Positions 3,843-52,177 of a stretch of DNA of 64,000 nucleotides are shown here, piece after piece. Source of the stretch: Phycisphaerae bacterium. GTDB lineage: Bacteria; Planctomycetota; Phycisphaerae; UBA1845; PWPN01. Both the position numbers and the translations under genes were made by a program. The DNA is taken from positions 1 through 64,000 of the forward strand of contig JAGNEZ010000015.1 in NCBI GenBank assembly GCA_018003015.1, given 5' to 3'. The notes beneath the pieces are model-generated. The model did no database searches and was not told where the DNA came from. It saw nothing but the letters and a program-made list of their open reading frames with translations. Positions within the stretch are counted from its first letter, which is position 1. Each line of letters opens with the position of its first letter.

Positions 3843-3932
3843 CTTGGTCTCCCCGCCCGCAAGGCGCGAGCCGTGTGTTCATCAGGCTTCGAGTGGCAAA
3901 GGTTCAGCTGGAAGAGCGCTGGAGGCAGAGGC

Positions 3933-5171: not shown

Positions 5172-5258
5172 AAAGGCAGCGGCCAGAGCGGCGCCGCGAG
5201 CGCGCCGGAGGACACCGTACGACGAATGACTGGTCCGGACCAGACCAAGGAGACGGCT

Positions 5259-5699: not shown

Positions 5700-5727
5700 A
5701 ACCTGCTGCGGCGCGAGATGCATCGAC

Positions 5728-6273: not shown

Positions 6274-6286
6274 GATGGAGATCGGC

Positions 6287-9092: not shown

Positions 9093-9113
9093 TGTGGGGC
9101 CGCAGGTGCGCCT

Positions 9114-14864: not shown

Positions 14865-14881
14865 TTCGAAAGATGTGAAAC

Positions 14882-21006: not shown

Positions 21007-21675
21007 ATGCTGTCCTTCACCCGGAAAACAGACTACGCGTTGATCTCCCTGGCTCACATTGCCCGCGGCCAGGGCAACTACTGCAGCGCTCGGGAGATTG
21101 CAACCCACTATGGCATGCCCATGCCCCTGCTGATGAACATCCTCAAGGTCCTCAACCAACACGGTATTACGCGCTCGATTCGCGGCCCGCGGGGCGGCTA
21201 CCAGCTTGCCAAGGCGCCGAAGGATGTCACCCTCCACGATATCATTGTGGCCGTCGACGGACCCGTTGCCCTGACCCACTGTCTGGAGAAAATGGTGTAC
21301 GATCACGCCCATGCTCACGACAGGAGCACGAGCCCATCGCCCGCCAACTCTTGCCGCGAGGCCTCGGCTTCGGGCGACCAGCATCTTGAGGTGGGCGGCA
21401 AGGACGATTCCCACGACAACGGTGACGGCCCCCGCCCTCCAGTCGAGGACTGCTGCCTGAAGCAGGTGTGTCCCGTCCGGGGCCAGGTCCATCGCGTCCA
21501 CCACAAGCTGGTAGCGTTCCTTCAGGAGGTCACGCTGGCCGACATCGTTGAAAAGGCGGTATGGCGTGACGGCGTCGCCAATCTGGCCGGCGGTCACGAA
21601 ACGGCCGCCGCGGGCTTTTCGGAGGCAACCAGCGAAGGAGTATCCAAGCATGAAGTCGCCCATCTACCTCGATAA
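21007..21675 (+). CDS. iscR: Rrf2-family regulator, IscR-like, with His/Asp-rich insert
   Basis: A 222-residue winged-helix regulator heading the isc operon. The first 90 residues are a clear Rrf2 domain ([45 protein letters not shown]). IscR holds a [2Fe-2S] cluster with three Cys and one His; here Cys92 occupies the first ligand position and Cys149 and Cys155 are spaced like the second and third. Between them lies an extra segment of about 50 residues rich in His, Asp and Gly (HAHAHD near 100-105). By analogy it represses isc when clusters are plentiful. ATG 21007 begins the Rrf2 domain; its ribosome site is weak. Its end overlaps iscS by 26 bases. Confidence 0.88.
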
Positions 21676-22864
21676 CAACGCCACGACCCCGGTCGACCCC
21701 AGAGTCCTGGAGGCCATGCTTCCCTATTTCCGAGAGAAGTTCGGCAATGCCGCGAGCCGCAACCATCCCTTTGGCTGGGAGGCCGAGGAAGCGGTCGACA
21801 AGGCTCGTGAGCAGGTCGCCTCGGTCATTGGGGCGAGCGCCAAGGAGATCGTCTGGACCAGCGGGGCCACTGAGAGCAACAACATTGCAGTCAAGGGCAC
21901 GGCCCGGATGTACCGGGACAAGGGCAGGCACATCATCACCCAGACCACCGAACACAAGGCCGTGCTGGATCCCTGCAAGTACCTGGAGCAGGAAGGCTGG
22001 CAGGTCACCGTCCTGGGCGTCCCCAAGAGCGGCCGGATCCACATCGACGAGCTCAAGGCCACCATCCGCCCCGACACCGTGTTGATCTCGATCATGTTCG
22101 GCAACAACGAGATCGGCACCATCCAGCCGATTCCCGAAATCGGGGCGCTGTGCAAGGAGAAAGGTATCCTCTTCCACACTGACGCCACACAGGCGTTTGG
22201 CAAGGTGCCCATCGACGTCGAAGCCATGGGCATCGACCTGTTGAGCGCTTCCGCTCACAAGGTCTACGGGCCCAAGGGGATCGGTTGTCTCTACGTCCGA
22301 CGACGCGCACCCCGAGTCCGATGTGAGCCCGTTCTGCACGGCGGCGGGCACGAACGCGGCATGCGATCTGGCACCCTCAATGTCCCCGGCATTGTCGGAT
22401 TCGGCGCGGCCGCAGCTATCGCCAAGGACGAGATGGCCGCAGAGAGTGTCAGGCTTGCATCTCTGCGTGACCGTCTCTGGACCAGCCTCAGCACACAGCT
22501 CAACGAGATCTATCGCAACGGTGATCCTGTCCACTCGCTCCCGGGCACGCTCAACGTGAGTTTCTCCTACGTCGAGGGCGAGTCCCTGATGATGGGCTTC
22601 AGCAACATCGCGGTGAGCAGCGGCTCGGCGTGTACCAGCGCCTCGCTCGAACCCAGTTACGTTCTCAAGGCCCTGGGCGTCGGCGATGACCTGGCCCACA
22701 GCTCGATCCGTTTCAGCCTCGGGCGGTTCAACACCGCCGACGAAATCGAGCAGGCTGCGAGCCAGGTGGTCAGTACGGTTCGCCGCCTGCGGGAAATGAG
22801 TCCGCTGGCCGAAATGGTCGCGGAGGGCATCGACCCGCGGAGCGTGGAATGGGCTCACCATTGA
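21650..22864 (+). CDS. iscS: Cysteine desulfurase IscS
   Basis: PLP enzyme of 404 residues that takes sulfur from cysteine to give alanine and an enzyme persulfide for cluster assembly on IscU. PLP Lys204 sits in [10 protein letters not shown], His102 in TTEHKAVLD, and the persulfide Cys328 in [14 protein letters not shown], all at the E. coli IscS positions. The [12 protein letters not shown] segment is also conserved. AAGGAG lies 10 bases before the ATG. The long mobile loop around Cys328 marks it as the IscS/NifS group rather than SufS. Confidence 0.97.
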
Positions 22865-22941
22865 GCTCCATCCCCGCCTTGACAGTTGCCTGAAGTGACC
22901 AACAATGACGGCAAGCCGGCTTGCCGAAAGGAGTAGTTGCC

Positions 22942-23382
22942 ATGGCGTACAGCGAGAAGATCCTGGACCACTACAGTAACCCCCGGAACATCGGCTCGTT
23001 GGATCGCGGCGATGCTCGCGTGGGAACCGGCGTAGTCGGAGCCCCCGAGTGCGGCGACGTCATGAAGCTGCAGATCAAGATCGACGAAAACCATCGCATC
23101 GTGGACGCCAAGTTCAAGACCTTCGGGTGCGGAAGTGCCATCGCCAGCAGTTCGCTGGCCACCGAATGGGTCAAGGGAAAGACTCTCGATGAGGCTCTGC
23201 AGATCAAGAACACCGACATCGTCCGCGAGCTGGCCCTCCCGCCGGTGAAGATCCACTGCAGCGTCTTGGCCGAAGACGCCATCCGGGCCGCGATCGCCGA
23301 CGTGCAGCGAAAAAACGGTATGGTCGCCGGAAGCCAGCCGGCCCAGACGTCCACCGGTCAGCAACCGGCGGGGGCGAAGTAA
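22942..23382 (+). CDS. iscU: Iron-sulfur cluster scaffold IscU
   Basis: Scaffold of 146 residues on which [2Fe-2S] clusters form. Ligands are Cys37 and Asp39 (APECGD), Cys63 (FGCGSA), His105 and Cys106 (KIHCSVLAED). The LPPVK motif (99-103) that HscA binds is intact, so it belongs to the true chaperone-served ISC type and not to SufU. Residues 128-146 are an added Gln/Ala/Ser tail. The ATG at 22942 has AAGGAG upstream. Confidence 0.97.
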   Translation: MAYSEKILDHYSNPRNIGSLDRGDARVGTGVVGAPECGDVMKLQIKIDENHRIVDAKFKTFGCGSAIASSSLATEWVKGKTLDEALQIKNTDIVRELALPPVKIHCSVLAEDAIRAAIADVQRKNGMVAGSQPAQTSTGQQPAGAK

Positions 23383-23430
23383 TCGTTTTCGAGTGACGGA
23401 CACGACACCCTAACAGGAGACCCAGCAGTC

Positions 23431-23763
23431 ATGGCCTTAGAGCTCACCGAACGAGCGGCGCGGGAAATCAAGACCATCCTCGAGCAGCAGAACCTGCCCG
23501 CTGACAAGACCTACCTTCGCCTCGGCGTCAAGGGCGGCGGATGCAGCGGTTTCAGCTACTCCCTTGACCTGACCGAAGTGAAGGGCGATCTCGACGAGGA
23601 GTTCGAGGTTAACGGCATCAAATGCGTCGTCGACCCCAAGAGCTACCTCTATCTGAACGGCGTGACTCTCGATTTCCGTGATGAATTGACCGGCCGCGGG
23701 TTCGTCTTCAACAACCCCAATGCCACTCACACCTGCGGATGCGGCAGCAGCTTCTCGGCGTGA
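23431..23763 (+). CDS. iscA: A-type iron-sulfur carrier IscA
   Basis: A 110-residue A-type carrier that passes clusters to target proteins. The three conserved Cys are Cys38 (GGGCSGFSY) and Cys102 and Cys104 (THTCGCGSSF). It could be called ErpA by sequence alone; the position between iscU and hscB argues for IscA. It has AGGAGA upstream. Confidence 0.94.
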   Translation: MALELTERAAREIKTILEQQNLPADKTYLRLGVKGGGCSGFSYSLDLTEVKGDLDEEFEVNGIKCVVDPKSYLYLNGVTLDFRDELTGRGFVFNNPNATHTCGCGSSFSA

Positions 23764-23872
23764 CCGGCGCTCGGCAACGGTGGCGCGACCCTCGGCCCGT
23801 GAGCGCCTTCCGTACCCGCGGCGAATTGCGACAGGTCGCCGGAGGACCACCAACACCTGGAGAACGTCCATT

Positions 23873-24517
23873 ATGAGCGAACCAGCCTCGACACCACCTC
23901 TCCGCTGCACGGAATGCGAGAATCCCATGGATTCTCCCATCGCCTGCTCGACCTGCGGAGCACTGAGCCAGCTGCCGGCCGACAGCTTCGATTCCTTCGA
24001 GCTGTTCAGCATCAACCGGGAATACGACATCGACCCCAAGGTGCTGCACCACAAGTACCTTTGCCTCAGCCGGGTCATTCACCCCGACCTGGCTTCGGGC
24101 GAAGCCGGCCATCAGCGCAGTCAGTCCCTCAACCTCAGCGCCGAGCTCAACCGGGCCTACGACACGCTCCGCGACCCGGTGGCCAGGGCGGAGTACCTGC
24201 TCTCGCTGGCCGGCGGTCCGAGGTCTTTTGAGAACAAGACCGTTCCCCAGGAGTTGCTCGTCCAGGTGCTGGAGTTTCGCGAGGAGATTGAGGACGCCAG
24301 GGCGTCAGACGATACGGCCACTCTGCAGGCCATCCAGCAGCAGCTGCTCGGTCGCAGGGAAGCCACCCTCGCGCGCATCGCGGAACTCGCCCGCGGGCTC
24401 GAAACCGGCGACCCGCAGAACCGGATCCGCCTCCGCGAGCAGTTGAACACCGTGAAGTACTGGAACAATATCCTGGAACAGATCCCGCCCACGGGCGTGG
24501 CCGGGCGGCGGGGGTAA
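23873..24517 (+). CDS. hscB: J-domain co-chaperone HscB with N-terminal zinc-finger-like module
   Basis: A 214-residue co-chaperone that brings cluster-loaded IscU to HscA. The J domain spans about 40-115 with HPD at 70-72 and NRAYDTLRDP, followed by the three-helix C-terminal domain that binds IscU (EELLVQVLEFREEIEDAR-like helix, then TVKYWNNILEQI). Unlike the 171-residue E. coli protein it starts with four Cys (12, 15, 25, 28), spaced CxxC-9-CxxC, like the N-terminal finger of animal HSC20. It is followed by hscA after 3 bases. ATG 23873 has GGAG upstream. Confidence 0.93.
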   Translation: MSEPASTPPLRCTECENPMDSPIACSTCGALSQLPADSFDSFELFSINREYDIDPKVLHHKYLCLSRVIHPDLASGEAGHQRSQSLNLSAELNRAYDTLRDPVARAEYLLSLAGGPRSFENKTVPQELLVQVLEFREEIEDARASDDTATLQAIQQQLLGRREATLARIAELARGLETGDPQNRIRLREQLNTVKYWNNILEQIPPTGVAGRRG

Positions 24518-24520
24518 GCC

Positions 24521-26479
24521 ATGGGCGACACCACGGACATCGTGATCGGCATCGATCTGGGCACGACCCATTCGCTGGTAGCCGTCTGCGACGAGTCCGG
24601 CCCGCGGGTGCTCCGCGACGCCACCGGCGAGAGCCGCGTGCCGTCATGCCTAACCTTCGGCCAGAATGGCAAGGTCACTGTCGGCTGGGAGGCCAGGAAC
24701 CACGCCATCGAGAATCCTACCTCCACCGTCTTCTCGATCAAGCGGCTCATGGGCCGCGGCTTCGACGAACTTGAACATGACGGCGAACTGGCTCAGCTGC
24801 CCTACGCGGTCGTCAAGCGAGCGTCCTCCGAGACTGGGCGCGACATCCCCGCGGTTCGGATCGACGACCGCCTGCTCACCCCCCCGGAGATCAGTGCCGT
24901 GATTCTGCGCGATCTCAAGCGTCGCGCCGAGACCCAGTTGGGCCGGACCGTCCGCAAAGCGGTCATCACCGTGCCCGCCTACTTCGATGACGGGCAGCGC
25001 CAGGCCACGCGCGACGCCGGGCGCATCGCCGGCCTTGAGGTCCTGCGAATCGTCAACGAACCCACCGCGGCCGCACTCGCATACGGCCTCGGCGCCCGGG
25101 GGCAGATCGACGGCCAGGAAACCGAGACCCGGCCGCTCCTCAAGCTGTCCGGGCAGTGTTCGACCTCCGATTGCGGATGCCCCCATTCCGCCCATCACGA
25201 CGCGGACAACGAGGAGTCAACCATCGCAGTGTACGATCTTGGCGGCGGGACGTTCGATATCTCCATTCTCCGACTGGTCGAAGGTGTCTTCGAGGTGCTC
25301 AGCACCCACGGCAACACCCGGCTTGGCGGCGACGACTTTGACCGGCAGATCATCCATCTCGTCGAACGCGAGGTCAAGCAGCAGTTCGGCCTGGATATTC
25401 ACTCACCGGCAACCCGCCAGGCACTCCGCGGTCTCGCCGAGAACGTCAAGATCCGCCTCAGCAATGAGCCCTCCGCGTCCTTCGAGATCGACCTCGGATC
25501 GAACCGCGTCTACAAGAGAACAATCACCCGCGGCGAGCTCGAGGTCATGCTCGCCCCCTGGATCGAGCGGACCATCGAATCCTGCCGTCATGCTCTGGCT
25601 GACGCCAGGGTCGAGCCTTCCCAGATCAGCCAGGTTGTCCTCGTTGGCGGCAGCACCCGCATCCCGCTGGTGCGGAGCCGGGTCGAGGAGGTCTTCGGAC
25701 GTAAACCCTACACCGCCCTCAATCCCGACGAAGTGGTCGCCCTGGGGGCCGCGGTCCAGGCCGGTATCCTCGCCGGCACGCGCCGCGACGCCCTGCTGCT
25801 CGATGTCGTGCCGCTGTCGCTCGGCATCGAGACGCTCGGCGGAGCCATGGGCAAGCTCATTCTCCGCAACACGCGTATTCCTTGCCAAGCCACCGAGCGG
25901 TTCAGCACCTTCGCGGACGGCCAAACCAACGTCAAGATCAACGTCCTTCAGGGCGAGCGCGAGCTGGCTCGCGACTGCCGCTCCCTCGGGATGTTCGAAC
26001 TCCGCGGCGTGCCCCCGATGCCCGCGGGGATTCCCAAGATCCTGGTCACCTTCCTCATCGATGAGAACGGCATCCTCAACGTCTCCGCCCGAGAGGAACG
26101 CAGCGGCCAGGAGGCCGGCATCCAGATCGTTCCCACCCACGGGCTGACCCCGGACGAGGTCAAGCGCATGGAGCTGGAATCCTACGCCCACGCTCGTGAG
26201 GACATGACCGCCCACCGGTTGATCGATCTGCGCAACCAGATCACCTTCGACACCGACAAGACCGAACAGATGCTCGCTCACGTGGGTGATCGCCTCGGAC
26301 CCGGCGAGCGAGCCGCGATCGAACAGGCCATCCGCGATCTCCGCGGCAAGGCCGAGACCCTCACCGACGCCGACGCCCTGCACAACGCCCTCATCGCGTT
26401 CGATCGCAACACCGTCCGGCTCGCGGAACTCGCCATCACCGCGACCCTGCAGGAGACCCTCAACAAGGAGATGCAATGA
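24521..26479 (+). CDS. hscA: Hsp70-class chaperone HscA with Cys/His insert
   Basis: A 652-residue Hsp70 specialised for releasing clusters from IscU via LPPVK. Nucleotide-domain motifs: IGIDLGTTHSLVA at 9-21, VPAYFDDGQRQATRDAG, VYDLGGGTFDISIL (237-250), VLVGGSTRIPLVR and DEVVALGAAVQAG. The substrate domain follows (LSLGIETLGG, INVLQGERELARDC). Between AYGLG and VYDLGGGT there is an insert of about 40 residues (193-233) with Cys213, Cys218, Cys220 and His222, His225, His226, absent from standard HscA/DnaK. Assignment as HscA rather than DnaK rests on operon position and on the intact partner genes. Confidence 0.94.
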   Translation: MGDTTDIVIGIDLGTTHSLVAVCDESGPRVLRDATGESRVPSCLTFGQNGKVTVGWEARNHAIENPTSTVFSIKRLMGRGFDELEHDGELAQLPYAVVKRASSETGRDIPAVRIDDRLLTPPEISAVILRDLKRRAETQLGRTVRKAVITVPAYFDDGQRQATRDAGRIAGLEVLRIVNEPTAAALAYGLGARGQIDGQETETRPLLKLSGQCSTSDCGCPHSAHHDADNEESTIAVYDLGGGTFDISILRLVEGVFEVLSTHGNTRLGGDDFDRQIIHLVEREVKQQFGLDIHSPATRQALRGLAENVKIRLSNEPSASFEIDLGSNRVYKRTITRGELEVMLAPWIERTIESCRHALADARVEPSQISQVVLVGGSTRIPLVRSRVEEVFGRKPYTALNPDEVVALGAAVQAGILAGTRRDALLLDVVPLSLGIETLGGAMGKLILRNTRIPCQATERFSTFADGQTNVKINVLQGERELARDCRSLGMFELRGVPPMPAGIPKILVTFLIDENGILNVSAREERSGQEAGIQIVPTHGLTPDEVKRMELESYAHAREDMTAHRLIDLRNQITFDTDKTEQMLAHVGDRLGPGERAAIEQAIRDLRGKAETLTDADALHNALIAFDRNTVRLAELAITATLQETLNKEMQ

Positions 26480-27290: not shown

Positions 27291-27983
27291 TCACTTCTCC
27301 CCGACAAACGGGCCCGGGACGACGGTCTTCAACTGCTGCAACTTCGGATCGATGCGAAACCGGTACTCCGCTTCAATCTCCTCCCGGGTGTGCGGGCGTG
27401 ACCGGAAGACGGCCACAGCCCGAGCGAGGGCCTGGGCTAGTTCCCGCAGAATGGGAATCGCCTCTACCATGGTCTTACCCGGCACGTAGACCCAGCGATG
27501 ATCCACTCTTCTGAACGACAGGGACACCGCCGGCGTTGATCCGATCATCGCCGTGACCGTGCCTGTCGCTCCACTCTCCGTGACGTCGGTAACCGACAGC
27601 TCTCCGGAGAACAGCTCCATGGCTCCGAGCAGGTTCAGTCGGCGCAAGGGATTCCAGTCAAAGACCGGGCAACTGGCCTGGCCGGCCTCCAGGGCCGCGG
27701 CGTTCGCCGCCCGGAGTTCCTCGATCACGATCAGCAGATCGATGACCGTCTCACGCGATTCGGGCTCGATGTAAGGGCGGAGACGGGCGTACGAACCCTG
27801 GCGATGCCACCGGCGAAGCAGATCGAATGTCTCGCGGAGACTGACCGGCGCCGGATCCGTCGGCGGTTTGACCCAGCGTGAGACGACCGGCAACCGTTCC
27901 GGCCCTACGACAATCGAGATGGCCAGGACCGTGCCCAGGAGGATAATCGCCACGGGCAGGACCATGCGAAGCGGGCGCAGCAC
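27291..27983 (-). CDS. Membrane-anchored protein of unknown function, end of cluster II
   Basis: A 230-residue protein with one N-terminal membrane helix (MVLPVAIILLGTVLAISIVVG) and a soluble domain, probably periplasmic. It begins with GTG at 27983 after AAAGGA. The body has helical segments (LRETFDLLRRWHRQGSYARLR, VIDLLIVIEELRAANAAAL) and a beta section (GTVTAMIGSTPAVSLSFRRVD). I recognise no family. It follows the lipoprotein gene by 15 bases and is probably the last gene of the cluster II operon, so it may be an accessory of that machine. Confidence 0.65.
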   Translation of the reverse strand: MLRPLRMVLPVAIILLGTVLAISIVVGPERLPVVSRWVKPPTDPAPVSLRETFDLLRRWHRQGSYARLRPYIEPESRETVIDLLIVIEELRAANAAALEAGQASCPVFDWNPLRRLNLLGAMELFSGELSVTDVTESGATGTVTAMIGSTPAVSLSFRRVDHRWVYVPGKTMVEAIPILRELAQALARAVAVFRSRPHTREEIEAEYRFRIDPKLQQLKTVVPGPFVGEK

Positions 27984-27998
27984 GATCGCGTCCTTTCG

Positions 27999-28628
27999 CT
28001 ACCGAGGAACCGAAGGCGTCATTGCCGGTTTTGCCGGTGTGCCGGGTACCCGGAAGTCCTTTTTGCCGGACTGGAGCACCATTCCGTCACGACGCTCGAA
28101 GGTCACGATGATGCGGATTTCCGTGCCCGCCAGGTTGGTCCCCTCGTCGAACTTCAACGGAAGACCATACCCCCATCCCTGGGCCGTGCGCTTCGTCGAT
28201 CGGAACGGTATCGCCTGCTCCACATCGAAGGACCATTCCTTCACCAGTCTCGGCGGCTTGGGATTCGTGGTGCTGTTGTCCAGCACGAAGACCCGCGGCC
28301 GGATGACCCCGTCGCCGAACACCCCCAGGCCGTTGGGACCTCCACCCAGGTACAACCGGCTGACCACGATCCCCACGACCCGCGAGCGGCTTTCATCCCA
28401 CATCCAGGGATTGAACGGGTCATAGTATGCCGCCACCCGGACGATGGTCGGGTCCACAGGTAGCCGTTCGGTCTCCGACGCCGTCGCTTTGACCGGCCCG
28501 CGCGTTTCCTTCGCCGACTCCTCCCGCAATTTCAGATCGGTGCAGCCCCCGATCAAGAGCCATCCGACCGGCACGAGACTCCATCGCCATGTCCAAGCCG
28601 TGTTTCTCACAGCAACTCCCTTCGTCAT
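27999..28628 (-). CDS. Lipoprotein directly downstream of the mega-secretin
   Basis: A 209-residue predicted lipoprotein (lipobox LIGGC near residue 29) whose ATG overlaps the secretin stop (ATGA). GTG 28610, with AAGGGAG upstream, is an alternative start. The mature part contains VAAYYDPFNPWMWD, VVGIVVSRLYLGGG, and WGYGLPLKFDEGTN followed by a beta strand pair. Secretins often need an outer-membrane lipoprotein pilotin for membrane insertion; position and lipidation make this a candidate, but no similarity to GspS, PilF or PilQ partners is evident. Confidence 0.7.
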   Translation of the reverse strand: MTKGVAVRNTAWTWRWSLVPVGWLLIGGCTDLKLREESAKETRGPVKATASETERLPVDPTIVRVAAYYDPFNPWMWDESRSRVVGIVVSRLYLGGGPNGLGVFGDGVIRPRVFVLDNSTTNPKPPRLVKEWSFDVEQAIPFRSTKRTAQGWGYGLPLKFDEGTNLAGTEIRIIVTFERRDGMVLQSGKKDFRVPGTPAKPAMTPSVPR

Positions 28629-31600
28629 TTCACCCGGACGGTGAGCGTCGGACGCTCGGGCTTCGTCTGGATCGCCGACACCGGCGGGCCGTACTGATCG
28701 ACTTCCGGACCGAGCTGATCCACCGGCTCGTCGGAGCGCTTCTTCTGCTCGCCGGTCGGGCGCAGGACATCCACCGGACCGAACTGATCGGCATCGGGCT
28801 TGACCTGCAAACCCTGCATCAGCGGGCTGCGGCGAATGTTGTCGTTCAGTCCGGTCTGATCGCGCATCTCCAATGACAAGGTCCGGGCCTCTTCCGGGGT
28901 ACGAATCACATGCGGCGTGAGCATGATGATCAGTTCCGTTCTGCTCGTCTTGCGGGTCGAAGCCCGGAACAGGTTGCCAATGCCCGGTATGTCACCGACC
29001 AGCGGTACCTTGCTTTCGCTCTTGGTCTCGTTGCTGGTGATCAGGCCGCCGATGATGACCGTCTCTCCATCCTTCACCGTCACGGTCGTCTTCGCCGACC
29101 GCTCGTCGAACGTCGGCAGCGACACGCCCGTCGAGATCGTCACCGGGGATTGCCCGATCTGCGAAACCTCGGGGCTCACCTCCAGGTTGACGTACCCATC
29201 CGCGTTGACGATCGGCGTCACCTTCAGGATGACACCCACCTTCTCGTAGGTCACGCTCGGCGTGACGACACCGGAGGACGACACCACCACGTCCTGGACC
29301 GTGGGAACGCGCTGGCCAATGGTGATCTCCGCGTCCTGATTGTCCTGCACCATGATCGATGGGCGGCTGAGCACCTCAAGCTGGCCTTCCGCCTGCAGGG
29401 CATGAAACAGGAAGTCAAAATCTTCGCCCGTCACCGTGAAGGAAATGCCCGTCCCGCCGCTCTGCCCCAACGCCCCCACGCTTGTCCCGAGGATCTTGTC
29501 GAAGCCTTCCCCCTGGATGACCCCGTTGGGACCGGCGTACTTATTCTCGCTGAAGACCAGGTCCTGCAACGCGAACTCCATGCCTAGCTCGAAATTGTCG
29601 TTGATCGTGACCTCGGCCATCAACACCTGGATCATCACCTGAGCCGGGGCCCGATCCAGCTCATTGACCATGGCGACCACCTGTGATTCCATGCGCGGGT
29701 TGTAGCTCACCACCAGCGTGTTCGAGCCCTTGCCGCCTTCCTGGATGGTCACCTGGCGCATGAGCTGCCGGGACGCGGCCTCCCCCTTCTGGGCGGCCTC
29801 CATCGCTTGCTTCTCCTCGTCGAAGAACGCCTTCATCGCCGCGGCCACATCCTCCGACGTCCGGTTGCGGAGCTGGATCACCCGCTGCACCCGCTCCTCG
29901 ACCTCCTGGTAATCGAGCTTGTAGACCAGGTTCTCCACAATCCGCAAGTAGGCTGGACTGCCCGCGGCGATCAGCGAATTCGTCCGCTCATCGACCGAGA
30001 ACGTCAACTCCACGGCGGCGCCGGCCCCGCCTTCCGCAACAGTCCCCCCTGAGACCAGCAGAGGCGTCGAACCATCCGACGAACCGCTCTTGCTCTTGAA
30101 CAGGTCTTCCAGCAGGTTCTGGATTTCCTTTGCGTCCGAGTTGCGCAGCGGGAACACCATCAGATCCGCAGTCTGAGGCTCGACGCTGTCCAGCATCTCT
30201 ACCAGGGTCCGCAGCATCTCGATATGCTCTTCGGGGGCCAGAACCATCAACGAGTTCGTGTTCTTGTCCGGGGTGATGGTCACATCCTGGTACACCAGGC
30301 TGCGCATCCGCTCCTCGCCAGTCTTCGGGTCAATGCCGAGGAACTTGATGATCATCTGCTTGGCGTCGTCGCTCTGCTTGCCGGTGCTCGAACCCGCCTT
30401 CTGGAAGAAATCGTCGAGCTGTTTGGAGAGGTCCTCCGCCTTCGCGTTCCTCAGCCGGAAGACCCGCAGGCCCATCTCCGTCTTGACCCGGGTGTTGTCC
30501 AGCTTGCCGATGATCGTCCGCACATTCTCCATCAACGCCGGATTCGCCCACACGATCAGGGCGTTGGTCCGCTCCTCCGGCGTCACGGCAAATCCGCCCT
30601 TGTTCTTGCCCTGCTGCTGCTCGATCAGCTTGGTCAGCGTCTCGCTGATCGTCTTTGCCTTCGCGTCGGCCAGGGGGAAGATCTCCATCTGCTCAGCGAT
30701 CGTCGACTTGCGGTCCAGCAGCGAGATCAGGTGCTGGGCCATCTGATGATCGTCCATCGAGGCAGTGATCACCAGGCTGTTCGACTGGTCGTCGGCGATG
30801 ATGTTGATCGGCGTCCGCTTGCTCGACTCGCCCTGGGCCGAGCGCTTCTGGAACATCTCGGTCATCACCGGCTCGAGCTTGCTGGCCGCGGCTTCCTTCA
30901 GGGTGTAGACCTTGAAGGTGTACGCCGCGTCCGTGGTCTCCACGTCCAGCTTGGGCACCAACTCCTCCGCCCGCTTGATCGCGAAGCGGGCCCCGGTCAC
31001 GATCAGGGCCTTGCTCCGCGTATCCGGGATGATCGTGACCTCGAGCTGGTCTTTCTGATCCGAGCCCATGCCTGCCTGCATGCCCTTGAACATCTGCTGC
31101 AGCGTATCAGCCAGGCTCACCACGTCGGCGTATTTGACCTTGAAGAACTTCGCGTCCGCGGGCATGTTGGCGATGTCTTCCCGGTCGATCTCCTTCAGCA
31201 GGCTTTCGACGATCGCGAGGTTCTGCGGGCTGGCACTCACAACCAGCGAACTGCTCCGCACGTCGGGCACGACCGTCACCTTGGTCGCCGACTCGGGCAG
31301 GTCCTTCTTGTCGCCCGAACCGATGTACAGCCCCTTGTCGAACAAATCGGTGACCAGCTTGGCCGCTTTGCTGATGTCCGCGTTGCGGACGGGGAAGGTC
31401 CGGAACACACCGTCCGCCGAGGGGGGTACGTCGAGCTGGGCGACCAGCTTCTTCACTTCCTCGAAGGTGCTCTTCGACGACGCCACCAGCATCGTCCGGC
31501 TCAGGGCATCCTCGATCACCGTGATCCGGTCCGACGGCTGCTCCTCCTGGCCCTTGGCCAGGCTCTGCTTCAGACGCTCGGTGAACAGCTTGCGAACGAT

Positions 31601-33787
31601 TTCCGCCACCTTGGTGACATCGTTGTTCACCAGGGTGATCGACCGAATATCCGCCATCGGCGAGACCTTCTGGGCCTCCAGCTTCTGAACCAGATCCTGG
31701 ATCGCCGCAAAATCGTCCGGTGTACTGGCCACCACCAGCGCGTTGCTCCGCGTATCGCTCACGATGACCGGCTTGTCCTCCTTCAAGCCGCCCTGCCGCC
31801 GCGCTTCCGCCCGGCCGTCCCAGATCTCCTTGATCTTCTCGGCCATGTCCGTGGCCGCCAGATTGTCCAGGGTGATGATCTGGATGGCACCCAGCCAGGT
31901 GTCCTTGATCTCGTCCAGATCCCTGACCAGCTTGGACAGCTCCTCGAACTTGTCTTCCTTGGCAACGATGATCAGGCTGTTGGTCCGGGTGTCCGGAATG
32001 ATCAGGCTGCGCTCGCGCTCGGCCGCCGTGGGGCTCAAGGTCTTCTCCGCCACCTTCTGCTGCTGGTCGATCAGCTTCTGCACACCTTCCGCGACAATCT
32101 TGACGTCCGCGTGGGCCAGGGTTACCAGCTTGGGCGTGTATTGCCCTACCGTCTGTTCAATGTCAACCGACTTGACGATCTGCTGAACAAGCAGGATCTG
32201 CTCCGGCCGACCGGACACCACCAGGGTGTTGGTCCGCTTGTCCGCCGAAAAACCGATGTTGTAGGCCAGCGACTGCCCGATCACGTCGGGCGGCATACGT
32301 CCGGCCACGGTCTTGCCCGGCTGTTCCGGCAGGCGTTTGCCTTCCTCGAAAATGGCCTTCAACGAAGCCATTAGGGCGTCGGCGTCGGCGTGCTCCAGCG
32401 GGATCACCTTGACCACCATCGCATCCGCGATCGGCGCCGCGTCCAACAGATGGATGATCTCGCCCATCGGTCCCAGGTTCTTCTCCGTGGTCGCCACGAT
32501 GATCGAGTTCGTCCCGACCTCGCCGAAGATCTTGATCGGCTTGTCCAGATCCAAATCGCTCAACTGCTTGTCACTCCCGTCCGGACCCTTGCGAACCACC
32601 TGCAGCCGGCGGATCTGCTCCTTGATCGCCTTCGCGTCGTCGCTGTCGCGCTCCAGCATCTTGGTCAAGGCGTCGGCCAGATCCTTGGCGACAGCCTTCT
32701 CCAACGGGTAGATCCCCACCTTGACCACTGCCCCGCTCTCCGCGGTCGGCTCGACGTCCATCAGGCTGATCAGGTGCTTGATCTGCTCAAGATCGTCCGC
32801 GGGTGCCGAGATGAGCAGCATGTTTGTGCGGGCATCCGCCAGAATGGTAAACAGGTCCGCGCTCTGCTTCTTACGCTGAGCCAGACTCTTCAAGATGTCC
32901 TTCAGCTTCTGCTCGGCCTCGCCCGCCTTGATGTATTTCAACTGGACCGGCTCGAACTTGACCGTCCCACTCAACGACGGCTGATCGATCCCTTCCACAA
33001 TCGTCGTGATCAACTCCATGTTCGCCTCGGTCGCAGCGATCATCAGCAGGTTAGCACGCGGCTCAGGAATGATCGCCAGCCGGTCCTCGGGACGAAGCTG
33101 TCCGCTGGTCGGTTTCTTGACGTTGTTCCACAACTGCTCGATCTTCGTGGCCAGCTCGGCGGCGTCGCCCGACTTCAACTTGAAGATCTTGAACTCCGGC
33201 TTAAACAGCGGCTGCTGATCCATCAGGTTGATGAACGCCTCCAGAATCGCCAGGTCGTTCTCTTCGCCGGTCATCACCAGGGTTCCGTCGGAGGTCACCT
33301 CGATCTCCACCGGATTGCCGGAGAGCTTCCCGATGCTCGACACCATCGCGGCTGGAGTCTGGATGCCCGGCGGGCTCTGGAGCTTGGTCTCGGCCACCTT
33401 CTGCAGCCTGGCCAAGTCCGCCACGGAAGGTTGCGTGCTCGGCAAGCCAGCCTTGGCCGCGGTCGCCGGTTGGGTGGACGGCGGAAGCAGGGCAGTCACC
33501 GAAGTGGGGAACGGCGACGATTTGAGGCCGGGGCGATCCGCCGCCGGCCGGGTGGTCGAGGCCAAGGCCGAGGTGATCCTGGGACGAGCGGGAATCGGTC
33601 GCGGGGCCGCCGGCCCGGGGCCCTCAGCGGCCGGCCTGTCGCTATTGGCGGCCAGCGCCGCGTCCGGGCGCTCGCTGGGCACCACGGGTGCCAGCACCAC
33701 GTCCGCCGGCTGCTCGGCCGGACGCGTGGTTTGCCCGAGCAAGGCCTGTCCCAGAGCCAATGTCAGAACCATCCATGCTGATCGCAT
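28625..33787 (-). CDS. Mega-secretin: about 15 N-domain repeats plus secretin pore
   Basis: A 1720-residue secretin, about two and a half times the usual GspD length. A signal peptide (1-19) and an Ala/Pro/Thr-rich linker are followed from about residue 130 to 1380 by some 15 repeats of roughly 83 residues. Each has the N1-type pattern: a strand like VFPLRNADA, a helix, a variable charged loop, then a motif like DxRTNSLIVxA, a helix and a closing LD(V/R). The pore domain (about 1383-1630) has MIQVLMAEVTINDNFELG, LSRPSIMVQDNQDAEI, the VPLVGDIPGIGNLFR signature and LIIMLTPHVIRTP. A Pro/Gln/Asp tail follows. GGAGG precedes the ATG at 33787. It lies 149 bases after the giant repeat gene, and its stop overlaps a lipoprotein gene. 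Confidence 0.93.
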   Translation of the reverse strand: MRSAWMVLTLALGQALLGQTTRPAEQPADVVLAPVVPSERPDAALAANSDRPAAEGPGPAAPRPIPARPRITSALASTTRPAADRPGLKSSPFPTSVTALLPPSTQPATAAKAGLPSTQPSVADLARLQKVAETKLQSPPGIQTPAAMVSSIGKLSGNPVEIEVTSDGTLVMTGEENDLAILEAFINLMDQQPLFKPEFKIFKLKSGDAAELATKIEQLWNNVKKPTSGQLRPEDRLAIIPEPRANLLMIAATEANMELITTIVEGIDQPSLSGTVKFEPVQLKYIKAGEAEQKLKDILKSLAQRKKQSADLFTILADARTNMLLISAPADDLEQIKHLISLMDVEPTAESGAVVKVGIYPLEKAVAKDLADALTKMLERDSDDAKAIKEQIRRLQVVRKGPDGSDKQLSDLDLDKPIKIFGEVGTNSIIVATTEKNLGPMGEIIHLLDAAPIADAMVVKVIPLEHADADALMASLKAIFEEGKRLPEQPGKTVAGRMPPDVIGQSLAYNIGFSADKRTNTLVVSGRPEQILLVQQIVKSVDIEQTVGQYTPKLVTLAHADVKIVAEGVQKLIDQQQKVAEKTLSPTAAERERSLIIPDTRTNSLIIVAKEDKFEELSKLVRDLDEIKDTWLGAIQIITLDNLAATDMAEKIKEIWDGRAEARRQGGLKEDKPVIVSDTRSNALVVASTPDDFAAIQDLVQKLEAQKVSPMADIRSITLVNNDVTKVAEIVRKLFTERLKQSLAKGQEEQPSDRITVIEDALSRTMLVASSKSTFEEVKKLVAQLDVPPSADGVFRTFPVRNADISKAAKLVTDLFDKGLYIGSGDKKDLPESATKVTVVPDVRSSSLVVSASPQNLAIVESLLKEIDREDIANMPADAKFFKVKYADVVSLADTLQQMFKGMQAGMGSDQKDQLEVTIIPDTRSKALIVTGARFAIKRAEELVPKLDVETTDAAYTFKVYTLKEAAASKLEPVMTEMFQKRSAQGESSKRTPINIIADDQSNSLVITASMDDHQMAQHLISLLDRKSTIAEQMEIFPLADAKAKTISETLTKLIEQQQGKNKGGFAVTPEERTNALIVWANPALMENVRTIIGKLDNTRVKTEMGLRVFRLRNAKAEDLSKQLDDFFQKAGSSTGKQSDDAKQMIIKFLGIDPKTGEERMRSLVYQDVTITPDKNTNSLMVLAPEEHIEMLRTLVEMLDSVEPQTADLMVFPLRNSDAKEIQNLLEDLFKSKSGSSDGSTPLLVSGGTVAEGGAGAAVELTFSVDERTNSLIAAGSPAYLRIVENLVYKLDYQEVEERVQRVIQLRNRTSEDVAAAMKAFFDEEKQAMEAAQKGEAASRQLMRQVTIQEGGKGSNTLVVSYNPRMESQVVAMVNELDRAPAQVMIQVLMAEVTINDNFELGMEFALQDLVFSENKYAGPNGVIQGEGFDKILGTSVGALGQSGGTGISFTVTGEDFDFLFHALQAEGQLEVLSRPSIMVQDNQDAEITIGQRVPTVQDVVVSSSGVVTPSVTYEKVGVILKVTPIVNADGYVNLEVSPEVSQIGQSPVTISTGVSLPTFDERSAKTTVTVKDGETVIIGGLITSNETKSESKVPLVGDIPGIGNLFRASTRKTSRTELIIMLTPHVIRTPEEARTLSLEMRDQTGLNDNIRRSPLMQGLQVKPDADQFGPVDVLRPTGEQKKRSDEPVDQLGPEVDQYGPPVSAIQTKPERPTLTVRVK

Positions 33788-33936
33788 CACCGTATCCTCC
33801 ACTGCCAGGCGCGAACACCACTCAACGCGCCGGCTCTGCTGCAACTCACTTCCCCGCCCCGCCAGCCGACCTTTCGCCGACCACTCCCCCTTTCCAGGGG
33901 GACACAGCGGACCTGCTCTCCCTCGCGGCAGAAGCC

Positions 33937-36900
33937 CTACCGCCCATAGCCGGTCTTCTGCCCGCCGCTCCGCTGCTGCTCGATCAGCTGATCCAGTACC
34001 TTCTTCATATCCTGGGGAGCGATGTTGACCGGCCGCACCACGCGGGCGCTCATGCCGCTCGTCGGCTTCATCTCCTGCAGCTTGTCCACCAGCTGCTTCA
34101 CCGTCGGGAACAGGCTGGGCGTACCGGCCACCATCAGCGCCGGCACGCGCTCGTCGACGCCGATGGCAATCTGGCCCGGCTTGTAGCCCGGCTGCTGTCG
34201 CTGCTTGGCCTGCTCGCCGGTGTTCACCGTCTTCTCGATTTCGGAGGCCAGCTGCCGAGCGTTCATCCCGCGCGGCAGTTGCACGACCTCCATGCCGCTC
34301 ATCTCGGTCTTGGTGTCGAGTTTCTCGGCCATCTCTTCGATCATCTTGTAATCAACGGTGCGAGCCCTGACAACGAGCGAGTTGGTCCCGTCGTCGGCCA
34401 TGATCAGCGGAATGGTATCCGTACCGCTCGTTCGGGTGCGGTTTTTCTCCGCCGGCTCGGTGAACATGCGGCTCAGGGTGGTCGCCAGCTGGGCGGCCGA
34501 GCCGTTCTTGATCGGGATGATCTTCGGCGCCGTTCCCGCACCGGGCATCTCCTTGTCCATGTTCTGAACGACCTTCTGAATGCGATCGATGGACGACGCC
34601 GAGCCGCTCACCACCAGGGCGTTCATCAGGGGTGACGCCTGGATACGAACACCGCCGACCAGATCCTCGCTCCCGCGGCCAGCGGTCGTGCCCGGCTTCC
34701 GCAGGTACTCGGACATGATCTTCTGAGTCTCCGCCGCGTCGATGAACTCCAGGACAATGACCCGCAGCTCCTCGACATTGGCCTCGTCCACCGGTTTGTC
34801 CAGTTCGGCCACCAGTTCCTTGATCGCGGCCATATCCTGCTTGTTGGCCGAGACCACGATCGAGTTGCTGTTGGTGTCCGCCCCGAAGGCCGGTGGCTGC
34901 TGGCCCGCCCGGCCCTTGGTCCGGTAGGTCGCCTGCAGCACCGGGTACAGGTCCGCCGCCCGGGCGTTCTTCAACCGGAGGATTTCCTGCTGGGGAACAC
35001 CGGTTCCGGACACATCCATCTCCTTGATCAGGGCGGCGATCTTCTCGTGGTTCTCCGCCGAGGCCGTGACCACCAGCGTGCTGGTCGCCGGCTCGACCGA
35101 GGTCACCACCTGATCGCGCTGGCCGAGCGTCTTGTTGGCCTCGAATCGGGCGTCGATCACCTTCTGCATGGCGGTCAGGTCGACATACTGGATCGGATAG
35201 GTTTTGATCGACCGTTGAGTCTCGCCTACCTGGGGAATGTCCAGCTGGGCGATCAGGGCCTTGATCTCCTTCATGGATTCGTCGTTGTTGGCGGTCACGA
35301 GCAAAGCGCCGGAGGCATCGTTCGACGACACGGTCACCGGATAGGTGCCCGTTCGCCTGTCGACCTTCATGCTCGCCCTGATCATCTTGTCCAGGGTCTT
35401 GGCCAGCTCCGAAGGAAGCACGTTCTTGATCATCACCGTTTCCGGAGCGGTCAGCCGGGACCCCTTGATCTCCGCCGTGTCCAGTTCCGCCACGATCTTG
35501 GAGACCCGCTCGTGGTTCTCTGAGGAGGCAGTGACCAGGAGGGCGTTGTTGGTGGCGTCCGCCGTGAAGGTCACCTGATCCTGGATCGGCCGGTTGGCGT
35601 TGTTCGAGAACCGGGCGGTGATCGCCGTGACCACCGATTGCAGTTCCGCATACTGCAAAGGGTACGGTTTGACGGTGCGGTCCTTGTCCATCGGCGGCTC
35701 GATATCGAGCTGGGCGATCAGGGCCTCCGCCTCTTTCATGTCCATTTCGTTGGCCGTGATCACCAGCGTATTGGAGGCGTCATTGGCGGCTGCCGTGATC
35801 GGGTACAGACCGGTCTTCTGATCACGCTTCTTGCTCCGCTGGATCATCGCGTTCATCGTCGTCGCGACGTCCGAGGCCTTGGCGTGCTTGAGAACGACGG
35901 TCTTGGGGATCACCACACGATCCAGATTGCTGATGTCCAGTTCCTTGATGATCGCCGCGACTTTCTCGTGGTTCTGGGGCGACGCCGTGACCAGGAGAGC
36001 CATATTGACGTAATCCGGGGTCAGACTCACCTGATCGTGGATCGGGCGCTTGGCGTTGTCCTGGTACCGCGCCGTGATCGCGGTCGTTGTCGACTGGAGG
36101 TCGGCGTAGCGCAATGGATAGGACTTCACCACCCGCTCGATCGCCGCGGCCGGCTGGCTGTCGAGATTGCTCACCATGGCCCGGATCTCGTCCATATCCT
36201 TGGCGCTGTTGGCGGTCAGCAATAAGGTGTTCGACTGATCGTCGGCCGTGACCGACACCGGATACGTGCCTGTCACCCGGTCCCGTCGCATCGTCCGGCT
36301 GATCATCTCGGTCAGCGTTCGGGCCAGATCAGAAGCCTTGGCGTTGGCCAGGTGAATTGTCACCGGGGCGGTGATCTTGTTGGCATCCGGATTGTCAATC
36401 TGGCTGAGCAGCTTGGTGATTTGCTCCATCTCGTCGGCCGGGGCCTTCACCACGATCGCCTGCGTGCCGTATTCCGCCGCGATGGTCACCTGTTCGTTGG
36501 CCGGCACCCGGCTCCCCGTCTTGGCGAAAACCTGGGTCAGCGCCTGCACGGTGTAGCCGAGGTCGGCGAACTTGACCGGAATCACCCTGGTCTGCTGGCC
36601 TCTCGGCGTCGCACCTTCCACGTCCAGGCTAACCAGCAAGTCGTCGATCGCCTTCTTGTTGTTCGCACTGCACGTCACCAGCAGCCGCTTGGTGGACGGC
36701 TCGGGGGTGATCGAGACCGTCATCTCCGCCGGTGCGATAGTAGCCCCGGACTTCGTCAGGGCCGTAAACCGCTTCTGGAACATCTTGTCCAGAGTCTCCG
36801 CCACCTCATCCGCGTTGGCGAACTTCAGCGGGATCTGGTAGTCATTGACCGTGATCGCAGCCGGCGGCTGCGGAATCGCTCCCTCCAACGGGTCGATGAT

Positions 36901-39900
36901 CTTGTTCTTGATCTCGTCGATCTGAGCTCTGGTGCCGGTCACGTAGACGACGTTGGCGCTGGCCTCCGCAGCGGCCTTGGGTGGCAGCATGCCGTGAACA
37001 AACTGCTTCCCGGAGTGCAAGGCATTGATCGTCGCCGCCACCGAGGTGGCCTGGCCCCTGACCAGGGTGAACATCTGGGTCGTCACCGTGGTCACATCCG
37101 GCGGAGGCGCGTCCAGGTCGGCCAGCACCTTGGTCACGGCCAGGAAGGTCGCGGGCGTGCCCGCCACGATCAGCGAGTTGGTCCGCTCGTCGGCGGTCAC
37201 GGCATACACATCGGAGGCAATCGCCCCACCGCCCGAGCGAGTGACCTGAATCATCATCTCCTTGAACCGCGACAGAACCTCCTGAGCGGTTGCATGCTTC
37301 AGCTTGAAGACCTGGATGTCGCTCGTCGTGGTCTTGTCCATGGTCTCGGCCAGGCCCTTGATTTCGTCGAAGACCGCGGCCGGGGCACTGACAAACAGCA
37401 TCTTGCTGCTGTCCTCACCCACGATCGTGACCCTCTGCTTGCCGCCCTTGCCGCGAGCCCCGCCCGTGCCGGTCCTGCTGCCCAGGAAGATCTCCTTGAG
37501 CTTGTCCGCCACGGTCGAGGCATTGGCCACTTTGAGCTGGATCTGGTGCGGCTTGACGTCCTGCCCCACCTCGTCATCCAGCTGCTTGATCTGCTCCGCG
37601 ATCAGTTTCTGCTGAGCGTCCGGTGCCCACACCACGATGCTGTTGGTCTCCGAGTTCGGCGTGATCCGAATCGCCAGCGAACCCGTCGCCTTGGGATCAT
37701 CCACATGAACCGCGCGCAGCGTCTCCGCGGTCGTCGTCGCGTCGGCGTGCTCCAGAGTGTAGATCTGGGCCTGACCCTTGTCCGGGGCGACGTCCAGCTT
37801 GGTGATAATCGGCTCCACCTTCTCCATGTCTGGCAGGAGAGCCCGAACGACCAGGGTGTTGGTCCGCGCGTCGGCGGCCACGGTGACCGCGCCCATCCGC
37901 GAAGGGCGAATGACTTCCCCTCCGCCGGCCCCCATACGACCGCCGCCACCTCCACCGCCGCTGTCGGTCCGGAAGATCCGCTGCAGTTCCGTCGCCACCT
38001 TCTCCGCGTCACCATACTTCAGTGGGAAGGTCTTGATCTGCGACGGGATGTCCTGAGCCTCGAGGTTGTCGATCAGCTTCTCCACCAGCTTCATGCCGTC
38101 CTGCGGAGCGGAAACGATGATGCTGTTGGTCGTCCCGTCCGAGGTGATCGTGATTTCCTTGGCCGGATTCAGCTTCAGCTTGCCCTTGACGTCCCCCTCG
38201 GCGCCGGGCGTGGCCGCGTCGCCACCCAGCATGCCGGAGGCCTGCATCTCGAGCATCTCCTGCTCGAGCTGTTCGATCAACGCATCGGCGTTGCCCATCA
38301 TGCCCGGCATCCCGGGGCGCATCATGCTGGGCCGCGTGCGCAGGGTTCTCGTCCGGGTATCCTCGATCTTGAGAATCGCCTTGATCGCCTGCTCGACTTC
38401 ATAGGCATTCAACTTCTTGAGCTGGAAGATCTTGATGTCCACCGGCGGCTTGTCGCTCGGCCGGTCGATCTTGAGCAGCAGTTCGGCCACCGGCTGGAAA
38501 TCCTCCTTGGCCGCGCGGACAATCAGGGTCTGATCGCGCGGGTTGGGGAAAATGCGAATCCGTTGTCCGCCGGGCGCGGCCTGAGCCTGCTCGGCCTCCT
38601 TGCGGGCCTGCTCTTCGTCGCGCCGGCGCTTGCCGCCGCCTTCTTCGTCCTCTTCTTCCTTCTTGTCCTTGGCCCCGCCAGCTTGCGGCTTTCTGGCATC
38701 CGGCTGCGCGGCCTTCTTGGGCTGCGCCGGCTGCTTGTCGTTGAACATCTGCTCCAGGATCGTGGCCGCGATGCTCACGTCCAGATACCTGAGCCGGAAC
38801 ACGCGTACATCGCTTGGAGCCTCCTGCAGCTCCTCGAAGTTCTCGATGATCCTGTCCAGCGTATCCTGGAGCTCCTGGACTGCGGATGGATCGCCCAAGA
38901 AGTAGATCAAACCCGACTCCTCGTCGTACTTGACCTGCACATTCCCAGTCTGGTAGGCCTCCGCGGCCGCCCGTCCGATCTCGATCTTGGTGCGCTCCTC
39001 CGCGGACATCTCCGACTCCGCGGGGGCGTTGGCGGCGGGATCCGGAGCGGGCGACGGCGATCGCGCTTCGACACCCTGCGAGCCACGAGGTGTCTTCCCG
39101 TGGTCTTCAGCGGCGGGTGCCGCGGGAGCGGGTGTAACCGGCGTCGGTGCCGGTACCGGGGGCGGAGGTGCAGTCACAGGTTGTGGGACGGACGCTGCAG
39201 GCTGCGGAGCAGGAGCGGCGGTCACGGGCGCGGGCGCCACCGGGGCCGGAGCAGCTGCCGCCGGCTGAGTCGCCGGAGATGCCGCCACCGGCTGAGAGCC
39301 GGGGGCGGCCGGTTGTGGGGCCGGGGCGGTTGCCGCCGGCTTCGGTGCCGGTGCAGGCGCCGCCGCAGGCCGAGTCGCTGGAGCGGGAGTAGCCGCGGGT
39401 TGCGAACTTGCGGCCGTGGTCGGTTGGGCCGCTGGCTCAGCCACGGTGATCTTCACCGCCCCCGCCCAAGCGAATCGGGCAATGGCATCCGTCAGGGGGC
39501 GCAGTTCGGAGCTCGGGGCAACCACAGGTGCGTTGTTCAGCGACGTCGTTCTGACGCCCGGTACGCCCACCGGCGCCGCGGGCTGAGTCGTCGAACGATA
39601 GTCGGGTTCCACAATCGGATCGGTGTAGTTGATCTCGTTCAGCATGTCGAGCGGGTTCTTCCGTCCGGCCGCCTTCGGAATCGCCGACACCTTGAACTTG
39701 TTCTGCATCTCTGCCGGGGCCGCCTGCTGCATCATCTCCACCATGCGGGCCACGTTGGTCCCTTTGGGAACCTGCTTGACCGACATGGTGACCGGGGCTC
39801 GGATATTCTGCTTCTGCAGCCGGACCAGCCACTCCTCAACCAGCGTGAAGTGTTGCGGCTTGCCTTCCACGATCACCTGGTTGGCGATCGGGAAGCTCTT

Positions 39901-42900
39901 CACGTATGGCGAATCCGAATAGCCGATCAGATCGATGAGCACGCGATCGAGATACTTGGCGATGGTCTCCGCCGAACCCTCGACATCGTATACCTTGGTG
40001 ATGTTGCCCTTGCGGCTGGTCACCACGGCACCCATGCGGCTGGTGTGGGTATCCTCGGCCGGCTTGGCCAGATCCTCCTTCATCTTGATGATCTCTTCGA
40101 TCAGCGGGAACTTGTCCTGCGGTGCCGAGACGATGATTCGCTTACTGGCGTACTCCGTCTGAATGACCACCGGCGTCGAGCCGCGCGATCTCCGTCTGCT
40201 CCCCGACCCTCCGTAGCCGACCGAGGAGTAGTCGTAATCACTGCTGCTGTAGCCGCTGCCGCCCGCCTCGCTGGCCCCGGCGATGTCCTCGAGAGCGCTG
40301 ACCACTTCGTACAGGTCCGCATACTGGAGGGCGAAGACGCGCAGAACCGGCCCTTCGGGCTTGGCCTGGGCATCAAGGCTCAGCACCAACCGCTCCCCCT
40401 CGGCCACCTTGTCATTGGGCCCACGCAGAATGATCATGTTGCTCGACTCGACCGGCGTCGCGGAAAGCTGCTCGGCATCGCTCGAGCCGCTGCTCCGACT
40501 CATCATCCCGCCGCCCCAGGGTGACCACTCACCCCGCCAGCCATCTCGTCCGCGACGCCCGCCCCAGCGCGAACCGCCGCCGCTTGACTTGTTGACCTGC
40601 TCCTCGACGATCTCGGCGATCTCCTCCGCCCTGGCCGTCTTGAGCGTGATCATCCGCATCGTGGACGGCTCGGCTGGCCTGTCGAACTCCTTCAGCAGTT
40701 CGTCGACCAGCGGCAACAGGCTCTCCGGCGCGGACACCATGATCCGCCGACCGGTCCGGTGGGCGTTGACCCGGGGCCCGTCGGACATGCCGCCGAAGCC
40801 GCCGTACCACCCGCCGCCGCGCCGCCCGCCGCTCTTCTCCTTCAGCTCCTGGAACTTGGCCTGCAGGATCGGCTCGAGCATCTCCGCGATGTCGTCGGGC
40901 CGGGCGTCCTTCAGGTCATAGTGGCGGATCACCATCGAGGTGTCCGGCCCGCTCTGCTTGATCATCTGCTGGACGATCGGATCGATCTCCGCGATCTTCT
41001 CCGGCGGGGCCGAGACCATCAGAATGTCGCTGTTGTAGCTGCCGATGAACTTGACGCCGTCCCTCGATCCTCGCCGCCCCCATCCGTCACCCCTCGTCCC
41101 CACCGAGTACAGCTGCTCGAGGTTCCGGGCGATTTCCGATGTGCCCTGATAGTCGGAGCTCTCGACCTTGTAGCTGCGGATCTCGTTCTTGCCGCTCGGA
41201 TTGGTGTCCAGCAGGGCGATGAACTTCTCGATCTCCGCCATCTTGTCCTGCGGCGCGCTGACCACCAGCCCGTTGCCGACCTCGGTCATCTTGATGCTGC
41301 CGGGCGTCGACGAGGAGGACGAGGAGTCCCACCATCGCCGACGGTCGCCGCCGCCGCCCGAGGTGAACATCGTTTCGATCGCGCTGCGGACTTCCTCGGC
41401 CTCCGCGTGCTGCAGAACGAACGTCTTGCGCACGAACTCCTGGGCCGCGTACAGGTCGTCGATCTCCTTGGCGTATTTCTCCGCCTTCTTGAAATCCTCC
41501 TCCGAACTGGTGATCAGGATGCGGTTGCTCACCGGCTCGGCCACCAGCGAGATCGGCACTTTCGGAGCGCTGTCGCCCATGCCCATGCTGTACATGCCGA
41601 AATCGCCGAATCCCCCGCGGCGCCCGCCGCGGCGCCCGCCGCCGCTCTCCGGGAACAGACCCTCCAGCTTCTCGATCACATAAGCGGCCTCGGCCGTCTT
41701 GAGCTGGATCACCCGCAGCTCGGCTTGGTCAGCGGCGCTGGGCTGGTCCAGCTGCAGGATGAGTGCGGCGACCTTCTCGTGAATCTCGTCATTCGCCGAG
41801 ACGATCACCACGTTGGTCTGTGGATCGAAGCGGAACTTGGCGTCCGCCGATTCCCCACCGCCGTAGCCCATGCCCCACCGCGAACGTCCGCCGCCCCCGC
41901 CGAACGACTCGGTCAGGATCTGGGACACGTTGCCTGCCCCCGCGTGCTTCAGCTTATACAGCTTCGTGGTCTTGTCCACATCGGCGCTGGTGTCGAGTTC
42001 CTTCATCACCCGCTCGATGTCCGTCCACATCTCCGGGGTGCTGACCACGATCAACGTCTTGGAGCTGTCGTCCGAGATGAACTTGGGAAGACCACCCTCG
42101 CCCGAACTCATCCCCCCCCCGCGGTAGCCGCGGCCGCTGTAGCCGTACCCGCTGTAGCCGCCGCCCCCGCCGCTCTTCTCGCCGAAGCGGCTCATCAGCG
42201 TCATGGCCATGTCCGTCGGTGTCGCGTGCTTGAGACGCACCAGATGCTCAACCGCGCCCGCTTCCGGATCCACGTCCAGCTTGGCAATCAGCTTCACGGC
42301 ATCGTCGAGGTCCTTCTTGTTGCCCATCAGGATGAGGGCTCGGTCGTTGGCCACATCCGGAATCGCTCGGAAGTCGGCATCCTGGCTGCCGCCCCCGCCG
42401 TAGGCCCGTCCGCCGGATGAACCTCGCGACGAGAAGGTCGTGCTCAGGATCCCCGCGATGTTGGACGCGCTGCCATGCTTGAGAACGATATACTGGTACG
42501 CCTCTTCGTCGGCGGGCACATCCAGGAGCTCGATGAACTCCTTGACTCGGACCATTTCGTCCGACTTGGCCTTGACCAGAATCGACCGGCTCTGCTCCAG
42601 CGGCGTCAGCACCGCGGTGGTGCCCACGTTGATGACCCGTGGCGGCTGCCGAGGCGGTGGGGGCTGACCCGGCTGGGCCACGGGCTGCGGTACCTCGATG
42701 ATCTTCTGCTCGCCGAGCATCGGACGGATCATCTCCGCCAGCTTGGTCGGCGAAGTGTGCTCGAGCTTGATGACTTCCAGCTGGCCGATCTTCTCCAGAG
42801 GCAGGTCAATAAACTTCTCCAGGTACTCCGCCACCAGCTTGTGCTTGGATGGAGTCGCCCGAATGAGCAGCCGGTTCAGCCGGCTGTCTTCGTTGATATC

Positions 42901-44661: not shown

Positions 44662-44688
44662 TGGTCCGTGACCTCCAATCACGCCCTC

Positions 44689-52167: not shown

Positions 52168-52177
52168 CGCGCCCACC

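Follow-up and report, generated by a model that had tools for sequence, protein, structure and literature searches.

A probable giant secretin encoded by two adjacent genes in a Phycisphaerae bacterium

Secretins of the GspD type usually carry an N0 domain and three N1-type domains in front of the pore, and so the question raised by the gene at 28625-33787 (minus strand) of a 64,000-nucleotide stretch of contig JAGNEZ010000015.1 (hereafter the window) was whether it truly encodes a secretin with about 15 such domains and, if so, what kind of channel this would make. The reading frame ends with a stop at 28625 and its likely start is the ATG at 33787 (1,720 amino acids), followed at once by a signal peptide (MRSAWMVLTLALGQALLGQ), although an alternative TTG at 33844 would give 1,739 amino acids and that numbering is used here. 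A Pfam search found 14 Secretin_N stretches (E 6e-144) and a single secretin pore domain (PF00263, E 4.5e-51) at residues 1482-1648 (28901-29401, minus), the sequence of which also matched solved GspD/PulD by phmmer (E 1e-44). The NCBIfam GspD model TIGR02517 scored 635 bits against a cut-off of 351, although multiple stretches add to this score and the PilQ model TIGR02515 also passed narrowly (291 against 284). A custom N1 profile, built from the repeats themselves, gave 14 full domains at residues 218-1397 (29654-33193, minus) and a half-domain at residues 181-209 (33218-33331, minus), lying between a Pro-rich leader that follows the signal peptide and the pore with its C-terminal tail, and 200 shuffles of this protein and its upstream partner gave no hit. 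The observation made in the original prediction, of about 15 N-domain repeats before an intact pore, is therefore correct (as 14.5), but it understates what is encoded here as it did not note that this protein lacks an N0 domain, nor that the gene upstream completes it. The intactness of the pore rests on sequence, as an AlphaFold model of the pore with three N1 domains was poor (pLDDT 48) and was not used.

Although the genome is a 144-contig assembly, a repeat mis-assembly, frameshift or pseudogene breaking one gene in two is rejected as an explanation. The N1 domains are diverged (median pairwise identity 21%) and so have not been collapsed, the gene is present at 97% identity in another MAG, dN/dS is about 0.10 for this gene and 0.10-0.13 for it and its upstream neighbour, indicating purifying selection, and the same split is found in all relatives of families f1, f8 and f5 (our labels for families of the relatives examined) in which both genes were in view.

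The next gene upstream in the operon (33937-44682, minus) encodes 3,581 amino acids, with an apparent signal peptide, a Pro-rich leader, 27 Pfam Secretin_N stretches and no pore. The custom profile found 30 N1 domains in two blocks, block 1 with 11 (40084-43104, minus) and block 2 with 19 (34078-38808, minus), separated by a Pro/Ala-rich linker of about 300 amino acids (38809-39816, minus) that appears to interrupt another N1 domain, although this interrupted domain was recognised only by inspection of the translation. Many block 1 domains carry Gly/Arg/Tyr/Trp-rich loops of about 20-44 amino acids between alpha1 and beta2, and we considered whether these might form a lumen-filling gating mesh, but this was rejected as a feature of the class because such loops are strong in block 1 of this family, and similar in family f1, but not in most other families. 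Block 2 contains successive related copies of a two-domain N1 unit (domains 21-26 of the giant protein; 35230-36600, minus; DNA identity about 0.6), and domain number in this block differs even from that of a genome of the same genus (19 here, 21 there).

The missing N0 domain was found on this upstream gene. An N0 profile made without members of this family hit the giant protein at residues 352-513 (E 6e-14), a region comprising N0 and a first N1-like domain (43144-43629, minus), and across the split families strong N0 hits fell only on the first gene. The profile of 19 such N0 regions matched solved GspD N0-N1 structures at E 1.7e-14. An N0 domain at the N-terminus of the pore-bearing polypeptide, as expected of GspD, is thus absent from the 1,720 amino acid protein itself but is present in the gene pair and in relatives where the two are fused. 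Neither protein is a complete secretin, but together they are, with a total of about 49 N-domains. This total counts N0, the N1-like domain after it, the 30 and 14 profile domains, one degenerate domain near residue 1600 and two interrupted domains, the last three by inspection or weak scores.

In related bacteria the two genes are one. Among 40 relatives and the wider class, the pore lies in a frame of about 1,250-1,900 amino acids in families f1, f2, f5 and f8, but mostly of 4,100-5,200 amino acids in the sister families f4 and f7 (shorter ones there lie at contig ends). Complete fused ORFs hold 34-48 N1 domains and complete split sets 37-47 (genome G016 has at least 61), and the pore-proximal block, block 3, is nearly constant at 14 domains (CV 0.07 without f4, 0.11 with it) while blocks 1 and 2 vary. 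One genome, G017, was left out because its secretin frame is joined across a run of N to what looks like an RNA polymerase gene and is likely mis-scaffolded. Reciprocal best matches of single domains ran in order, with 44 of 44 for the same-genus genome, 27 for the fused relative G038 (rho 0.95, with the pore-proximal block 1:1) and 22 for the fused relative G022 (rho 0.997), but order was less clear with the more distant fused relatives G021 (rho 0.66) and G042 (rho 0.41), as expected for diverged repeats. In other orders of the class single chains carry 30-60 N1 domains and reach 6,169 amino acids. The single proteins of related bacteria, of 4,000 to 6,000 residues, are by far the largest secretins that we know of. 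A tree of the pores grouped the giants together, but a single origin is neither shown nor ruled out by it.

The boundary between the two genes lies inside one N1 domain. The giant protein ends in the first half of such a domain (beta1-alpha1; 33949-34047, minus) and the secretin begins, after its signal peptide and leader, with the second half (beta2-beta3-alpha2), the tail matching profile positions of about 1-33 and the head about 39-70. In 15 of 18 junctions the joined halves scored 17-37 bits over nearly the whole N1 profile, about the sum of the parts, whereas shuffled versions scored under 2 bits; the three junctions G033, G020-1 and G013-1 did not give a full-length match. In fused relatives the same two halves flank a long linker, and so the boundary sits in the alpha1-beta2 loop, where other N1 domains carry variable inserts. 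No consistent Shine-Dalgarno sequence or start was found within the fused ORFs to suggest internal translation. A signal-peptide-like stretch (for example ending STAVAQ or LAIAQA, and often in AxAQ or similar) recurs in the second linker of fused ORFs in f7 (loci L046, from G038, L053, L057, L048 and others) and in some of f4 and f3, at the place where split families have the gene boundary, but its hydrophobicity is within the range of control windows of the array (95th percentile 1.62, maximum 1.87), and it may be either a fossil of two genes or a processing site. That the giant protein is instead a separate periplasmic scaffold or spacer, binding the secretin without being part of the channel wall, could be suggested from its being a separate polypeptide with its own apparent signal peptide, but this is unlikely as the same domains occur in the same order in one polypeptide with the pore in f4, f7 and other orders, the strong N0 match is only on the giant protein and the split falls within one domain.

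The genes surrounding the pair, all on the minus strand, are those of a type II secretion system (T2SS). GspF (platform protein, 53473-54675), GspG (major pseudopilin, 52981-53436), a GspH/I-position protein (51211-52314, weak match), a GspJ-position pseudopilin-like protein (50093-51211, weak Pfam match), a GspK-like minor pseudopilin (47523-50096), a PilM/GspL-like protein (45992-47533) and a GspM/PilN-O-position protein (44689-45990, assigned by position) precede the giant gene. The K-PilM-secretin part of this arrangement recurs in nearly every family of the class where the flank was in view, and F-G in those with enough flank. After the secretin lies a lipoprotein gene (27999-28628), conserved in the order and carrying a lipobox in most relatives where its start is clear, which is inferred to be a candidate pilotin, and then a small protein with one apparent membrane segment (27291-27983), conserved in some families. 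No GspE ATPase gene was found between 27291 and 54675, although there are 17 T2SSE-family ATPases in the genome, and GspC (PF11356) was not found in the genome using a profile that gave a hit in only 3 of 14 control genomes. One of these ATPases (2652-3794) lies in a second T2SS-type cluster of the window (2127-16081, plus strand; GspE, F, H-, J- and K-like, PilM/N-like), 11 kb from the giant one, with a near-normal secretin (11784-14864) that has N0 and about 6 N1 domains; apparent iron-sulfur cluster assembly genes (21548-26479, plus; desulfurase-, IscU-, IscA- and Hsp70-like, by inspection) lie between the two clusters. Further N1-type domains were seen in frames of 410 and 1,574 amino acids in genome G000 (contig C5, 119928-120317, and contig C36, 47882-48088), with no secretin pore match listed on either contig.

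The interpretation given in the original prediction, of a very long channel, perhaps suited to a wide planctomycete periplasm or to crateriform pits, is only partly supported. An extended secretin with an intact pore is supported, and is longer than was thought, and a very long channel is plausible by analogy with Thermus thermophilus PilQ, which is lengthened by stacked N rings (N0-N5, six rings, about 35 nm) and is said to span most of a wide periplasm (PMC5745081, PMC4463427), although PilQ serves type IV pili and has about one eighth as many N domains. A uniformly wide periplasm is not a sufficient explanation, as the same genome encodes secretins with about 3 and 6 N1 domains which must work in the same envelope; planctomycete periplasm is variable (PMC5394234), which could call for both short and long machines. 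The link to pits, which carry 12-nm pili-like fibres in this phylum (PMC5394234), is not supported and is considered very unlikely, as described Phycisphaeraceae lack crateriform structures (PMC8882080) and pits lie where the two membranes are close (PMC5394234), the opposite of what a long channel would need. Moreover, searches of 294 and 197 genomes across the phylum (the second with partial coverage of its matches) found frames of 2,400 amino acids or more with this pore only in this class, and none above 2,331 amino acids outside it, the frames there having about 7-9 N1 domains. Sampled secretins of other classes had about 1-9 N1 domains (about 5-9 in several families), with N0 first where detected and no giant array or split gene; those of family f85 in another class (loci L091, L092 and L097) reach 2,200-2,330 amino acids with only about 8 N1 domains and large gaps between them.

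Whether the whole array could stack as rings was addressed by structure prediction. AlphaFold predicted the N1 fold (pLDDT 85), which matched secretin N domains in the PDB with Z of about 9-11.5, but the inter-domain angles of a predicted tri-domain did not match stacked GspD (rmsd about 18-20 Å over three domains). The order follows a three-block plan in which disordered, Pro-rich linkers of about 100-450 amino acids, or gene boundaries, break the array at two fixed places, and so a continuous straight stack is not assured. Taken with the near-constant block 3, the variable blocks 1 and 2 and the variable periplasm, this leaves tentatively open a rival view in which only the pore-proximal N1 domains form rings, the rest being a flexible or coiled tether that keeps the outer-membrane channel connected to the inner-membrane platform as the distance between the membranes varies. 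Against this, families outside the order have 30-51 N1 domains with no or few long linkers, the N1 folds match those of ring-forming domains and N0 remains at the far end as in ordinary secretins.

We therefore favour, with reasonable though not high confidence, the explanation that the gene is the pore-bearing last piece of a GspD-type secretin whose periplasmic part has been multiplied to about 48 N1 domains plus one N0, here encoded by two adjacent genes. The sequences themselves establish the pore, the 14 and about 31 N1 domains, the N0 on the first gene only, the apparent signal peptides on both, the boundary within a domain, the correspondence in order with single-chain relatives and the conserved T2SS operon. 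It is by inference only that the two proteins would be exported separately and co-assemble 1:1, possibly by completing the split N1 domain in trans, to form one conduit, probably of 12-15 copies, with N0 at the inner-membrane platform and the pore in the outer membrane, through which a GspG pseudopilus would drive folded proteins. The spacing per ring is about 2.5 nm in GspD, and an upper value of 4 nm can be taken from PilQ, with about 35 nm for six rings plus pore (PMC4463427). If every domain forms a ring, the vestibule would be roughly 120-190 nm long and a 15-mer of both chains about 8.6 MDa. It is possible, though rather less likely than not, that a whole class of bacteria builds trans-envelope secretins of 30-60 stacked rings, more than 100 nm long and about 8 MDa, in the order studied here assembled from two or three polypeptides welded by completing a split domain in trans, with length set by domain number.

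Every domain found here is a known secretin domain, but searches of the open-licence literature gave no description of giant planctomycete secretins and no parallel for the number of N domains, the size of the chains or the gene boundary inside a domain. GspD of E. coli, V. cholerae and Klebsiella (PulD) shares the pore, the N1-type domains, the N0 at the far N-terminus and an operon with F, G, K and a PilM/GspL-type protein, but has N0 and three N1-type domains in about 650 amino acids, compared to N0 and about 46-48 N1 domains in two proteins here, joined at a split N1 domain, with no GspC found by the profile used. The f1 phage pIV is the opposite extreme, with only two N domains, N0 and an N3-type domain (PMC8563730). 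Secretins are among the best-studied bacterial machines, and as the largest described N-array that we could find has six rings, a family with 30-60 N domains, widespread in one class, breaks the assumed size range and may make envelope geometry readable from gene length, giving a clean test of domain number against channel length. The split-domain gene boundary is an unusual case in which the evolutionary fission or fusion point of a giant protein predicts how its pieces should dock.
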